Source: a bacterium (GTDB lineage Bacteria > SZUA-79 > Acidulodesulfobacterales > Acidulodesulfobacteraceae). From it: 57,443 nucleotides of DNA. The position numbers and the translations under genes were made by a program. Positions 26,788 through 51,456 of this stretch are shown one piece after another; within the stretch, counting starts at the first letter, position 1; the number at the start of each line of letters is the position of its first letter. The stretch is from NCBI GenBank assembly GCA_021825865.1, contig JAKAFU010000001.1, forward strand, positions 1-57,443, read 5' to 3'. The notes beneath the pieces were generated by a model. That model was not told the origin of the DNA. It worked only from the letters and a program-made list of their open reading frames with translations, and made no database searches.

Positions 26788-27267
26788 TCAAATTTTCGGC
26801 CATTTCATAAAAATATGCCCTTTTAAGAAATATAAAAAGGTAAACATAACAATAGTGATACCTAAAGAGGAAAAAAACATAATCCTGTTACTTTTGTCAG
26901 CTTTAGAGCCTGGTTGTTCACATTCACATTCTATCTCATTACTTAAATTATCTTGATTGTTTTGGCTTGCTTTTAACGAAATTTTCTGTAATTTTTGTCT
27001 TTTAAGTTTTGGTCGTATAAAAACAAAATAGAAACTTATTGCCAGACTTAAAATATTTAATATAATAAAATAATTTGTAAAATGAGCAAGTCCTTTTAAG
27101 GCAGAAGAAAATCCGCCAAAAGAACCTGCGCCGGCGGCGCTTATGCCTAATGCGCTTAAAACTAACGGCGCCCAGCAGCATGTTCCGCCTAATATTGCAA
27201 AAATCGACGGGATAACAGCTGCAATTTTAGTTTTTTCTTTTATAGGATTATTTTCATTGCTATTCAT
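26788..27267 (-). CDS. merT: MerT-like mercuric transport protein
   Basis: A 159-residue inner-membrane protein with three or more helices. The first helix carries the paired cysteines Cys30-Cys31 in 'ILGGTCCWAPLVLSALGISA', typical of MerT. A second Cys pair follows in the charged loop 'SNEIECECEQPGSK' before the last helix. In MerT these pairs hand Hg(II) across the membrane to MerA. GGAGG lies before ATG 27267. It follows the 84-residue gene by 14 bases and merA before that on the same strand, so the three probably form one operon. Confidence 0.8.
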   Translation of the reverse strand: MNSNENNPIKEKTKIAAVIPSIFAILGGTCCWAPLVLSALGISAAGAGSFGGFSSALKGLAHFTNYFIILNILSLAISFYFVFIRPKLKRQKLQKISLKASQNNQDNLSNEIECECEQPGSKADKSNRIMFFSSLGITIVMFTFLYFLKGHIFMKWPKI

Positions 27268-27573: not shown

Positions 27574-29274
27574 CTATGCGCAGCAGCTAAGTTTACTGAC
27601 GTCTTTAGTAAAACTCTGAGCAGCTAATTTAAGCCCTTCCGCCATAGTCGGATAAACGCCGATTTCCTCGCCGATTTGCTGAATCGTATAACTATTTTGC
27701 AAATAGACGCTTGCCTGCTGGATTGTTTCCGACGAGTTGTGCGCCAGCATATGAATTCCTAAAACTTTATTGGTTTTCTTATCCGCTATCATCTTTATTA
27801 AACCCTCAGTTTTAAAAATAGCCTGAGCTTTAGGAACGTATTCGACAGGAAAAACTACTTTAACTACATCATAGCCCTCTTTGATAGCCGCTTCTTCCGT
27901 TAATCCGACCGAAGACACTTCCGGGTCGGTAAATGTAGTATGCGCAACGAAAGAATAGTCGGCTTTAATATGTCTGCCGTGAAGCATATTATCGGCGGCT
28001 ATCTTGCCGTCATACGCAGCAGTCGTAACTAATCTCGTTATGCCAGTAACGTCTCCGCATGCGTAAATATTTTGATTGGCAGTTCTAAGTTCGCCGTCAA
28101 CTTTAATATAGCCCTGTTTGTAAGTTTCTACTCCGACCGCTTCCAAATTTAAATTTTCTGTATTTCCTACAACGCCCGTAGCCATTAAAAATTCATTAAA
28201 ATTAACCGTTTTTAAACCCTCTTCGGTTTCTATATCGGCATATTTTTTGCCGCCGTCTTTATAAAGGCGTTTTATTGAAGAATTAAGTAAAAATTCTATA
28301 CCTTCTTTTTTTAAAATATTCAAAAGCGCTTCCGATATTTCCGGCTCTTCATTAAGTAAAATCCTGCCGGAACGGCCTACTACTATCACATTGGAGCCAA
28401 ATCTTCTAAACATCTGCGCAAATTCAAGCGATACCGCCCTTGTGCCAAGTATTAAAAGAGTTTCAGGCAGATAATCCAGATTTAATATTTCTTCGTTTGT
28501 AAGATAGCCGACATCTCCCAATCCGTTAATGTCTATTATCAGATTTGTAGAACCGGTTGCAATAATGAATTTATCCGATGTAATTTTATAAGAGTCAACC
28601 CTTTTATCGTTTGGGATAACTTCAACTGAATTTTTTGATGCGAACCTTCCTTCGGCTTCTATAAACGTAATATTGTTATAACCCCTTAATACGTTATAAT
28701 ATTTCATTTCCCGCAAGCTGTTAAGAAGTTCGGTTTTTCTTTTTATGAGTTCTTTTATGTCAATATGCGTCTGCTTAGTTTCTATACCTTTAAATTTATT
28801 GCTTAAAGGTTCATAATATATTCTTGCGGCTTCCAGAAGATGCTTCGAAGGGACGCAGCCTCTGTTTAAACAGGTTCCGCCGATAACCCAGTTTTCAATA
28901 ACGCACACTTTTTTGCCTTCATCTGCAAATTTTATAGCCGATGAAAAAGCGGCGGAGCCTCCGCCTACGACTATTAAATCATAATCATAATTATGTCCGC
29001 TGCCTGTTTGACCGCCTTCAGATTTTGCCGTTTTTTTAACTTCTGTTTCGGAAACATCCGCCGTTTCATAAGCTAAAGGCGTATACCCAGCTTCTTCTAT
29101 GTTTTTCTTTATATCTTCTACATTTATATCGTCAAGTGCTAAAATAGTACTTTCGCCTTTTGATAAAGAGGTATCTGCATCCATTACGCCTTTTACTTTA
29201 TTAATTGCTTTATTGACCGAAACAACACAGTGTTCGCAAGTCATACCCTTAACATTCATTTTTATTTTCTTCAT
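27574..29274 (-). CDS. merA: Mercuric reductase with N-terminal HMA domain
   Basis: A 566-residue flavoprotein. Residues 1-68 are an HMA domain with 'VKGMTCEHCVVSVNKAINK'. The FAD/NADPH disulfide oxidoreductase core follows: 'YDLIVVGGGSAAFSSAIKFA', redox pair 'IGGTCLNRGCVPSKHLLEA', 'AYDGKIAADNML', and the dimerisation domain. The C-terminus ends 'KLSCCA', the vicinal Cys pair that delivers Hg(II) to the active site. This matches the canonical MerA length and motifs. It reduces Hg(II) to Hg(0) in the cytoplasm. A 12-2-12 inverted repeat sits 18 bases before its start codon. Confidence 0.95.
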   Translation of the reverse strand: MKKIKMNVKGMTCEHCVVSVNKAINKVKGVMDADTSLSKGESTILALDDINVEDIKKNIEEAGYTPLAYETADVSETEVKKTAKSEGGQTGSGHNYDYDLIVVGGGSAAFSSAIKFADEGKKVCVIENWVIGGTCLNRGCVPSKHLLEAARIYYEPLSNKFKGIETKQTHIDIKELIKRKTELLNSLREMKYYNVLRGYNNITFIEAEGRFASKNSVEVIPNDKRVDSYKITSDKFIIATGSTNLIIDINGLGDVGYLTNEEILNLDYLPETLLILGTRAVSLEFAQMFRRFGSNVIVVGRSGRILLNEEPEISEALLNILKKEGIEFLLNSSIKRLYKDGGKKYADIETEEGLKTVNFNEFLMATGVVGNTENLNLEAVGVETYKQGYIKVDGELRTANQNIYACGDVTGITRLVTTAAYDGKIAADNMLHGRHIKADYSFVAHTTFTDPEVSSVGLTEEAAIKEGYDVVKVVFPVEYVPKAQAIFKTEGLIKMIADKKTNKVLGIHMLAHNSSETIQQASVYLQNSYTIQQIGEEIGVYPTMAEGLKLAAQSFTKDVSKLSCCA

Positions 29275-29452: not shown

Positions 29453-29698
29453 TTAACAGCATACTCCTGTATTTTCTTCCAATAATTCAACATATTCTTT
29501 CGGTTTATAACCTGCAATCGTCAAATTATTTTTTATCTCATCAATATTTGCACTCTCAGATAGAGATATAACCGCCGTATTATCTTTTAAAGAAACCTTC
29601 ACTTCTTTTACCCCTTCAACCTTTTTTATTGCTTTATTTACGGAAACGATGCAGCCCCCGCAGGTCATACCTGTTATCCCAATCTTAATCTTTTTCAT
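29453..29698 (-). CDS. HMA-domain metallochaperone (MerP/CopZ-like)
   Basis: An 81-residue soluble HMA domain with 'GITGMTCGGCIVSVNKAIKK' (Cys13 and Cys16 bind the metal) and an unusual vicinal Cys pair at the very C-terminus ('TGVCC'). There is no signal peptide, unlike classical periplasmic MerP, so it should act in the cytoplasm, perhaps handing Hg(II) or Cu(I) to MerA. AAGGAGG lies seven bases before ATG 29698. A MerR-type promoter lies directly upstream. Confidence 0.85.
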   Translation of the reverse strand: MKKIKIGITGMTCGGCIVSVNKAIKKVEGVKEVKVSLKDNTAVISLSESANIDEIKNNLTIAGYKPKEYVELLEENTGVCC

Positions 29699-31258: not shown

Positions 31259-32395
31259 ATGGATACGCAGAGTATTATAGAAATAGATGAAACATATAAT
31301 AAAATCAGGAGTGAACTTTTTAGGGCTATAAAATTAAAAAAATGTAAAAAGTGCGGGTGCATGATTTATGGTTTGAACGATATTATTGAAAACCTTAAAG
31401 TAATAGGAGATGATGCCTCAAACGATTTAATAAATGAAGTAGAAAAATTAAAATTAGAGCTAAAACAGATCGAGTATTCATGTCTTGGCTGTAAACACTG
31501 TTATCCTGCAGCGGCTATTAATTATCTGACCGATGCGCTCATATTGCAAATTCAGAATTCTGTTAATCAGACGGGTTCCGTAAATTCTTTAGAATTTTTA
31601 AATTCATGGCCTGTTTCCCCAGGCGAGTATAATAATTTTTGTGACGGAACAGGATGCCCAATCGCAGTATCCACTCTTGCCAGTTTAGATTTATACGACA
31701 ATTTATCAAAGTTAAAACCAAAAGGACTTTGCATTATAGGAAAAACTGAAACTGAAAATATCGGAATAGATAAAATTATAAAAAATACTGTAACTAATCC
31801 AACACTGCACTATTTAATAGTATCGGGAAAAGAATCGCAAGGCCATTACAGCGGTCAATCGCTTATATCTTTATATGAAAACGGCGTTGATAAAAACATG
31901 AGGATTATCGGTTCAAACGGCAAAAAACCGATTCTTAAAAATATAAGTTATGAGGAAGTAGAAAATTTTAGAAAACAGGTTAAGGTTATAAACATGGTCG
32001 GCTGCGAAGATGCAGGTGAGATTGCGGTTAAAATAAGCGAACTTTTGAAAGACTTTGAAATTATAAAACCCTCTGAAATTGTTAATAAGACTTTTGTCTT
32101 GCCTTCTGTAAAAAAAATAATTGCAAAAAAACCGAAAAAGATAAAATTAGACAAAAAAGGATATTTCGTGATAATACCTTCATTTGCGAACAAACTGATA
32201 ACAGTTGAGTTTTATAATTATCGCAACGAATTATTAAATGTCATTGAAGGGGATAACGTTTATTCAATTTATTCAACAATAATAGAAAAAGAATTAATTT
32301 CCGAGCTGACACACGCCGCCTATATCGGGAAAGAATTAGAAAAAGCAAAATGGTGCATTAATTACGGTGTCAAATATATTCAGGGCGAAGCGTGA
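31259..32395 (+). CDS. MtrA-like (tetrahydromethanopterin S-methyltransferase subunit A family) protein with Cys-rich N-terminus
   Basis: A 378-residue soluble protein. Residues 29-34 hold CxxCxC and residues 75-81 hold CxxCxxC, a probable Fe-S or zinc site. The centre is an MtrA domain: 'CPIAVSTLASLDLYDNL', 'IGKTETENIGIDKIIKNTVT', 'LIVSGKESQGHYSGQSLISL' and 'GVDKNMRIIGSNGKKPILKN'. The His in GHYSGQ is the most conserved candidate cobalamin-contact residue. The last 90 residues fit a DUF4346-like end ('YFVIIPSFANKLITVEFYNY'). In methanogens MtrA binds the corrinoid of a methyltransferase. Bacterial homologues are of unknown role. No other Mtr subunit is nearby. Confidence 0.8.
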   Translation: MDTQSIIEIDETYNKIRSELFRAIKLKKCKKCGCMIYGLNDIIENLKVIGDDASNDLINEVEKLKLELKQIEYSCLGCKHCYPAAAINYLTDALILQIQNSVNQTGSVNSLEFLNSWPVSPGEYNNFCDGTGCPIAVSTLASLDLYDNLSKLKPKGLCIIGKTETENIGIDKIIKNTVTNPTLHYLIVSGKESQGHYSGQSLISLYENGVDKNMRIIGSNGKKPILKNISYEEVENFRKQVKVINMVGCEDAGEIAVKISELLKDFEIIKPSEIVNKTFVLPSVKKIIAKKPKKIKLDKKGYFVIIPSFANKLITVEFYNYRNELLNVIEGDNVYSIYSTIIEKELISELTHAAYIGKELEKAKWCINYGVKYIQGEA

Positions 32396-49556: not shown

Positions 49557-50531
49557 TTAAGCAAGCAGCGATTCAATAATTTTTTCCAGCTGACTATCGG
49601 AATTAAACTTTATTTCTATATTACCTTGAACTTTATTCTTGTAATTATTAATTTTATAGTTAATTTTTATCTGAGCCTGCAATTTTTCGAAAATTTTATT
49701 TTCATAATCTTTTATCTGAGCCTGCAAAGCTGAAAACTTTTTATCCGATGAACTGTCCGCATCTTTATTTTTAGTTCTGTTTTTTGCGTTTATAACCGGA
49801 ACATTGACTGTCTTCAAATTTTTTACATATTCTTCCACTTCTCTTACGGTCAGTTTTTCCTTGTCTATTTTATCGGTAAGGGATAATGCTTCGGTTTCGG
49901 ATAAACCTATTAAATTTCTTGCGTGCGACGGCGATATGACCCCGTTAATGATATTTTCTTTCATCTCGGGGCTTAATGACAATAATCGCAGCATATTAGT
50001 TATAGTTGCTCTGTCTTTTCCAATTTTTGCAGACAGTTCTTCATGGGTCAGGTTAAATTCGTCTATCAGTCTTTTATAGCATTGAGCCTCTTCTATGACG
50101 TTCAGGTCCTGACGCTGAATATTTTCTATCAGCGCTATCTCAATAGCTTTAGAACCTGTAAAATCTTTTATTATTGCCGGAACAGTTTTAAAATTGAGCT
50201 GCTTTGCAGCCCTATATCTTCTTTCGCCTGCAATAAGGTCATATATTACGCCGCCGGTGCCGGCTTCCGTATTTTCTGCGGATTTTGTTATGAGCAGAGG
50301 CTGAATGATTCCGTTTTCTTTTATTGAATTTTTTAATTCTTCAAGTTTTTTATCATCAAAATATATTCTCGGCTGATAAATTCCGGTTTTTATTTTATTT
50401 ATATCTATCTCAAATATTTTATAATCGGAAGTTTCGGCGTTTTCGCCGTTATCGGACAGCAAAGCACCAAGTCCTCTTCCAAGAACATTCCGCTTGATTT
50501 TCAAAGTTTTATCCTGCTTATGCTCAAACAT
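49557..50531 (-). CDS. parB: Chromosome-partitioning protein ParB
   Basis: A 324-residue CTP-dependent clamp protein. The N-terminal ParA-contact segment 'LGRGLGALLSD' is followed by 'IYQPRIYFDDKKLEELKNSI' and the CTP-binding motif 'AGERRYRAAKQL' (residues 101-112). The helix-turn-helix that reads parS is 'LTHEELSAKIGKDRATITNM'. A charged linker leads to the C-terminal dimer domain. It lies 148 bases downstream of parA on the same strand. parS-like sites occur at 52273 and 55423. Confidence 0.97.
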   Translation of the reverse strand: MFEHKQDKTLKIKRNVLGRGLGALLSDNGENAETSDYKIFEIDINKIKTGIYQPRIYFDDKKLEELKNSIKENGIIQPLLITKSAENTEAGTGGVIYDLIAGERRYRAAKQLNFKTVPAIIKDFTGSKAIEIALIENIQRQDLNVIEEAQCYKRLIDEFNLTHEELSAKIGKDRATITNMLRLLSLSPEMKENIINGVISPSHARNLIGLSETEALSLTDKIDKEKLTVREVEEYVKNLKTVNVPVINAKNRTKNKDADSSSDKKFSALQAQIKDYENKIFEKLQAQIKINYKINNYKNKVQGNIEIKFNSDSQLEKIIESLLA

Positions 50532-50679
50532 TTTTTAATATAAAAAAGTTATCTACAATTATCGGTTATCTATAATTTTATTGCTTTTTATTTTATTTAT
50601 TTTCTTGATATTTTATTATATGATATCTATTTTCCGCCATAACGAAAATACAACAGCTATAAATTATGCAGCTGCGTAT

Positions 50680-51456
50680 TTACGCTGCTCTGTTCAAAAT
50701 TTCCTTGGTCAATTCTAAATAGCTGCTCGCTCCTTTGGAATTAATTTCATATAAAATAATGGGTTTGCCGAAACTTGAACTTTCCGGCAATTTAATATTT
50801 CTCGGTATAACATTTTCATAAATTTTATCACCGAAATATTTCTTAACTTCATTTATTATCTGATGGGTCAAATTCATTCTCGGGTCGTACATTGTAAACA
50901 AAACGCCTTCAATCGTCAATTTTTTGTTCAGCTTCTGATTTACTATTTTTATTGTATTCATAAGTCTTGATATTCCTTCCAGCGAATAATATTCGCACTG
51001 CATAGGTATAATGGCGCTATCGGAAGCAACTAAAGCGTTAATGGTAATAAGTCCTAGCGATGGAGGTGTGTCGATAAAAATAAAATCAAAATCTGCCGAA
51101 ATTTTTTCTATTATATTTTTCTTCAGCAGATACTCTCTGTCTTCAATATCTACAATTTCAACCTCTATGCCCGCTAAATCTGAAGAAGAGGGAATCACGA
51201 ACAAATTTTTCATTTCAGTAGGCAAAATAGCTTTTTTTGTATTGGCAGAATCAAGTAAGCAGTTGTAAACCGTAAGCGTATTTTTATCGCTTCTGCTTAT
51301 CTGGATATTTAATCCGCTGGTCGCATTTGCCTGAGGGTCTGCATCGATAAGCAAAACTTTTTTTTCAAAAGCGGCAAGACATGCAGCGACATTGACGGCT
51401 GTAGTGGTTTTGCCGACTCCTCCTTTCTGATTGGAAATACAGATAGTTTTAGCCAT
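50680..51456 (-). CDS. parA: Chromosome-partitioning ATPase ParA (Soj)
   Basis: A 258-residue deviant Walker ATPase. The signature 'CISNQKGGVGKTTTAVNVAA' holds the Walker A Lys pair, 'VLLIDADPQANATSGL' the A' motif, and 'DFIFIDTPPSLGLITINALV' Walker B. It lacks an extra N-terminal DNA-binding domain, so it is of the chromosomal Soj type. It segregates the origin region with ParB. It sits 25 bases after rsmG, the usual origin-proximal order. Confidence 0.97.
   Translation of the reverse strand: MAKTICISNQKGGVGKTTTAVNVAACLAAFEKKVLLIDADPQANATSGLNIQISRSDKNTLTVYNCLLDSANTKKAILPTEMKNLFVIPSSSDLAGIEVEIVDIEDREYLLKKNIIEKISADFDFIFIDTPPSLGLITINALVASDSAIIPMQCEYYSLEGISRLMNTIKIVNQKLNKKLTIEGVLFTMYDPRMNLTHQIINEVKKYFGDKIYENVIPRNIKLPESSSFGKPIILYEINSKGASSYLELTKEILNRAA

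Follow-up and report, generated by a model that had tools for sequence, protein, structure and literature searches.

An MtrA-like bacterial protein with a Cys-rich front domain: predicted corrinoid binding and a possible tie of its relatives to metal(loid) handling

The gene, its domains and its surroundings

The window, a stretch of 57,443 nucleotides of bacterial DNA (Acidulodesulfobacteraceae; contig JAKAFU010000001.1), carries a gene of 378 codons with an ATG start, whose product joins a Cys-rich front domain to a domain of the MtrA family and a C-terminal DUF4346 domain (Table 1). It is a genuine gene. That it is no chance reading frame follows from orthologues with 92% identity in a sister species and 76% in a related genus, and from the retention without exception of six Cys and of H196 in 74 aligned homologues. 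In a Pfam search residues 115-264 match MtrA (PF04208, E 3.2e-39), and residues 297-375, which form an alpha/beta domain reached from the MtrA domain through a linker, match PterinBD-DUF4346 (E 4.5e-18). The latter bears out the DUF4346-like end proposed in a first-pass annotation made from the sequence alone. The CxxCxC and CxxCxxC motifs which that annotation placed at the front are both present (C29/C32/C34 and C75/C78/C81); its description of them as paired clusters of an MtrA-like protein holds as to their presence, with the refinement that their place is not inside the MtrA domain but in a separate N-terminal domain of about 110 residues.

Table 1. Features of the MtrA-like gene and metal-related genes of the window
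Feature	Position	Strand	Basis or remark
Entire gene, encoding Cys, MtrA corrinoid and DUF4346 domains	31259..32395	+	378 aa; Pfam, homologues
Helical Cys domain at the N-terminus, residues 1 to about 110	31259..31588	+	AlphaFold models
CxxCxC cluster C29/C32/C34 (C29KKC32GC34)	31343..31360	+	invariant in 74 homologues
CxxCxxC cluster C75/C78/C81 (C75LGC78KHC81)	31481..31501	+	invariant in 74 homologues; C75 is an in-frame TGA in four relatives
Predicted MtrA-fold corrinoid-binding domain, residues 115-264	31601..32050	+	PF04208 and fold match to 5laa/9qtr
T165-E166-N167, counterpart of MtrA Thr53-Glu54-Asn55	31751..31759	+	alignment; roles from PMC4915002; invariant
H196, counterpart of lower cobalt ligand His84 of MtrA	31844..31846	+	alignment, PMC4915002; invariant
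GKKPILKN in place of the MtrA energy-coupling meander GAIPF-Y/F-xEN	31919..31942	+	alignment, PMC4915002
PterinBD-DUF4346 domain	32147..32383	+	Pfam; common to TIGR00284 dihydropteroate-synthase-like proteins
MerT-like membrane protein	26788..27267	-	under Pfam cut-off; context only
HMA domain fused to MerA-like reductase, vicinal Cys pair at end	27574..29274	-	context only
Stand-alone heavy-metal-associated (HMA) protein	29453..29698	-	context only

The metal-related genes of the window lie about 1.6-4.5 kb from the MtrA-like gene on the opposite strand and do not form one operon with it. HMA-MerA and MerT-like genes are also found a few kb from the orthologue in the sister genome, and the neighbours of the nearest orthologues are mixed. 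The host genome has a corrinoid metabolism of its own, with genes of the CobB/CobQ type and a corrinoid methyltransferase of the MetH type.

The corrinoid pocket and the distance from methanogen MtrA

In the cobalamin-bound structure of MtrA the lower cobalt ligand is His84, held by a hydrogen bond from Glu54, and Thr53, Asn55, Gly57 and Asn64 touch the cofactor, Thr53 at the nucleotide tail and Asn55 at a ring amide (PMC4915002). The residues that align with these (H196 within GHYSGQ, T165, E166, N167, G169 and N176) are invariant in the 74 homologues, and are kept also in divergent copies from Planococcus and Paraburkholderia. An AlphaFold2 model of the window protein has a mean pLDDT of 87.6; its residues 115-280 superpose on cobalamin-bound MtrA with a Z of 22.7 (22-23 across 5laa, 5l8x and 9qtr; the structure alignment excluded one relative, L085, with an in-frame TAG). 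The first reading as an MtrA-like corrinoid protein, made to depend on the His of GHYSGQ being near the cofactor pocket, is borne out here by fold, lower-ligand His and pocket residues alike. MtrA-type corrinoid binding by the window protein is a prediction well supported by sequence and model, and a corrinoid methyl carrier is its likeliest chemistry.

Several features set it apart from the MtrA of methanogens, which it is not. The host genome (about 90% complete) lacks MtrH (PF02007), which matched in methanogen controls, and the window has no further mtr gene, in keeping with the first remark that other Mtr genes are missing nearby. Its score against TIGR01111, 127.7 bits, is far under the curated cut-off of 249.15. 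The meander GAIPF-Y/F-xEN, the segment of MtrA proposed to couple demethylation with sodium pumping (PMC4915002), is replaced by GKKPILKN, with G-[RK]-[RK]-P-[IVF]-L-[RK]-N at this position in most homologues. A DUF4346 domain is found instead of the C-terminal membrane helix of complex-bound MtrA. Cytoplasmic archaeal homologues of MtrA also lack this helix. What the protein has in common with MtrA (PF04208, TIGR01111) is the Rossmann-type corrinoid domain, the counterpart of His84 and the TEN/G/N residues of the pocket, and what is added is a Cys domain at one end and DUF4346 at the other.

Current databases label such proteins as methanogen MtrA or as DUF4346 protein. The nearest full-length model, NF002128 (PRK00964.1-6, named MtrA), is matched by all 74 homologues and by residues 12-378 of the window protein, at 346.4 bits against a cut-off of 568. 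Its name implies a methanogen function which the context of the window gene does not support. The dihydropteroate-synthase-like family TIGR00284 is matched by residues 281-376 only, its C-terminal part (41 bits, cut-off 256.65); on the strength of its Pfam name and of being shared with this family, DUF4346 may bind a pterin. MtrA domains outside methanogens, where the full Mtr complex is absent, have been described for Asgard MtrA-like proteins and MtrAH fusions, but those occur with, or fused to, MtrH and are predicted to transfer methyl from methyl-H4MPT and not to handle metals (PMC11291895).

Relatives: metal(loid) genes, membrane partners and spread

Full-length homologues are spread over many bacterial phyla, Thermoplasmatota, Nitrososphaerota and one Methanomassiliicoccales archaeon, and the spread is sparse (7 of 386 sampled genomes, 3 of 30 in the window's own phylum). 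In the tree the window clade is on a long branch beside sequences from Kryptoniota and Elusimicrobiota, and this placement taken together with the patchy distribution suggests horizontal transfer. Viral contigs gave 24 pattern matches, none of them a relative. In the Methanomassiliicoccales copy an in-frame TAG (L085:8943-8945) is at the position of the invariant Tyr319, beside a masked stretch; it could be a pyrrolysine codon, the mark of a pseudogene or a sequence error.

One clade of 24 loci, mostly from Nitrospirota and Deferribacterota (L026, L036, L037, L043, L046, L050 and 18 others), has the gene immediately before parA-parB and in the same orientation. None of these loci has a metal gene within 5 kb. 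(The window also has a parA-parB pair, at 49557-51456, about 18 kb from the MtrA-like gene.) The remaining 62 loci are different. Counting ArsR, MerR, CsoR, P1B-ATPase, RND, ACR3, CDF, ArsP/SO_0444, ChrA and ArsA, 25 of the 62 have at least one metal gene within 2.5 kb, against 0 of the 24 parAB loci. Their metal-gene density is 0.143 per kb up to 2.5 kb from the gene and falls to 0.031 per kb between 2.5 and 5 kb and 0.025 per kb between 5 and 8 kb, a ratio inflated by the choice of query proteins from among near neighbours; an unselected Pfam tally goes in the same direction but is weaker (ArsR, 9/148 near and 3/150 far). Family scans confirm Cd/Zn/Pb-type P-ATPases, ACR3, ArsR, CsoR and MerR among the neighbours, and the systems encoded imply differing metals: Cd/Zn/Pb, As or Cu. 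In Paraburkholderia a divergent MerR regulator adjoins the MtrA-like gene. At two loci (L044, L059) signal peptidase II-like genes are upstream, near ArsR, P-ATPase and corrinoid genes, an arrangement which we take to be reminiscent of lead-resistance (pbr) operons.

Three small Planococcus plasmids have ArsR/SmtB and HMA genes with the MtrA/DUF4346 gene, and on two of the three an annotated heavy-metal P-ATPase is immediately before it; the order ArsR-HMA-P1B-ATPase-MtrA is found on these Planococcus plasmids. The Planococcus copy at L010:7350-8726 has an extra, metallothionein-like linker (with repeats such as ACGCDDDSC) between its Cys and MtrA domains. Such a linker, and the metal context at large, would suit a resistance protein that binds metal as a chaperone or sink and keeps its MtrA fold as a relic without methyl transfer, but a relic would hardly be expected to retain the full corrinoid pocket, down to the His that ligates cobalt and the Glu that partners it, in bacteria and archaea alike, and we consider that very improbable. 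A metal(loid) role of the family is moderately supported. A literature search returned no paper tying MtrA-like proteins to metal resistance, and no mention of DUF4346.

A recurrent companion of the MtrA-like gene encodes a Cys-rich membrane protein of about 150-180 amino acids with an invariant CxxxxCCGSP within a hydrophobic stretch and, often, a terminal Cys pair. It accompanies the MtrA-like gene in nine loci, adjoining it, mostly with an overlap of a few bases, in L004, L042, L048, L051, L071, L076, L079 and L081 and standing a few genes off in L041, and is fused at the N-terminus in six more (L016, L033, L039, L068, L085, L093), the fusions spanning four phyla with one of them archaeal. 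Pfam gave no match for it, and the PDB none of significance. Kinship with the MerT-like protein of the window was considered, and no relation was found. There is some likeness to the Mer system (MerT/MerP/MerA), where a membrane protein with a Cys pair is beside a cytosolic protein that transforms metal, but the present partner lacks a convincing sequence match to MerT and the fused gene has no reductase. It also occurs without MtrA: on Pelobacter propionicus plasmid pPRO1 an unannotated copy (L139:5001-5348) is between DUF302 and a heavy-metal P-ATPase. The pPRO1 island also has ArsR and signal peptidase II, with no MtrA gene nearby. A second partner, of about 125 amino acids, is found in nine places (for example L071:7091-7471, L016:7135-7500 and L039:746-1120), and in many cases its gene and the corrinoid gene share a few nucleotides; it has an LGC[EQ]DxC motif and weak similarity to CcmE/OB-folds.

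An ordinary one-carbon carrier, passing methyl from a pterin to the corrinoid and on to a thiol acceptor such as homocysteine, would account for the parAB-linked clade being maintained without metal genes and for a DUF4346 domain common to the dihydropteroate-synthase-like family, and its methyl donor would be of the kind used by methanogen MtrA, which receives its methyl from a pterin (PMC4915002). The metal loci would then reflect backup of metal-sensitive enzymes under metal stress. Such housekeeping accords poorly with presence in so few of the genomes sampled, with metal cassettes on plasmids, with fusion to a Cys-rich membrane protein and with a MetH already in the genome. We think it unlikely.

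The Cys domain, selenocysteine and a candidate chemistry

The six Cys (29, 32, 34, 75, 78, 81) are invariant in the 74 homologues, which come from many phyla. The N-domain has no Pfam or PDB match and no Fe-S family over cut-off, and a fold search gave no Foldseek match below E 0.7 (the best VIA Z, 6.1, is meaningless for a helical bundle). Its AlphaFold model has isolated bridge residues, 32 and 73, consistent with two Cys clusters side by side.

Four relatives (L054, L083, L090 and L091) have a TGA codon where the first Cys of CLGCxxC, equivalent to Cys75, would be encoded. Reading continues past it for about 303 residues with 48-59% identity to the Cys-containing homologues, and substitutions between L090 and L091 after the TGA are mostly at third codon positions (34/13/59). 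In all four genomes SelB scores over its cut-off and a tRNA-Sec exceeds the gathering score. Short hairpins, putative counterparts of a bacterial SECIS, fold after the TGA at each of the four loci, and three of them have GGUC some 20 nt downstream of it; an Rfam search of the four loci gave no match. At three of the four there is no metal gene nearby. The selenocysteine form singles out Cys75 as the residue of first interest.

The same Cys domain could instead hold an Fe-S cluster that reductively reactivates the MtrA-bound corrinoid, making the protein a self-activating methyltransferase whose substrate may be no metal, in line with the electron-linked methyltransferase suggested in the first-pass annotation. 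Six invariant Cys would serve such a cluster, the modelled bridge residues fit two adjacent Cys clusters, and the top PDB sequence matches of the domain are PsaC-type 4Fe-4S motifs, all of them insignificant. Against it, selenocysteine at position 75 would be an unusual Fe-S ligand, no Fe-S family scores over its cut-off, and an Fe-S cluster alone leaves the metal neighbourhoods and the membrane-protein fusion unexplained. This seems to us quite unlikely.

Methyl transfer with a soft metal or metalloid is the simplest reading to give every part a role. A soluble carrier of MtrA fold would bind its cobamide base-off, His196 being the ligand and Glu166 standing behind it, while the conserved TEN pocket would take the nucleotide tail. 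The Cys domain (Sec/Cys in some relatives) would hold the soft metal or metalloid, DUF4346 possibly binding a pterin or another methyl partner. Methyl would then move between the corrinoid and a metal(loid) bound by thiolate or selenolate; either an ion would be methylated or an organometal demethylated, and in many relatives delivery or removal of the ion would fall to the Cys-rich membrane protein. Methyl transfer, its direction, metal as the substrate and cofactor binding are what we infer, and the handling of metal(loid)s by such a methyl carrier is proposed tentatively, with a probability of about 0.4. For the window copy we infer the role by homology.

The nearest functional analogy for the family is the HgcA/HgcB pair of mercury methylation. 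HgcA is of the CFeSP-type corrinoid family, as against the MtrA type here; the window protein does not match the HgcA family (NF040863), and no HgcA is present in the host genome. Co-occurrence with HgcA as an explanation is rejected, HgcA being present in only 1 of 18 carrier genomes tested. The likeness is one of architecture, since in HgcA/HgcB too a corrinoid domain is combined with a membrane domain and with a partner rich in Cys (PMC7305189), and possibly of function. Selenocysteine forms of HgcA/HgcB are known (PMC13188914).

Metal-gene enrichment near the relatives, the CCGSP membrane partner with its fusions and the TGA at Cys75 are new in this analysis. The metal-gene neighbours and the selenocysteine of relatives point to an undescribed, B12-dependent handling of toxic metals. 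Rather doubtful is the wider proposal of a widespread, horizontally spread corrinoid family, separate from HgcAB and MerB, that would methylate or demethylate soft metal(loid)s by passing methyl between an MtrA-fold cobamide and an ion at a Cys/Sec site, with a dedicated Cys-rich membrane protein coupled to it and with the selenocysteine members as a new selenoprotein family. (MtrA, PF04208, PF14251 and NF002128 are all absent from a 2026 review of prokaryotic selenoproteins.) If the family does act on metals, organometal chemistry would have a second corrinoid route next to HgcAB, with a bearing on the biological methylation or demethylation of mercury, lead, cadmium or arsenic in cases that have no genes assigned to them.

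A tRNA-Sec is encoded in the host genome too (G000:C3:29230-29321), although the window copy has Cys at position 75.
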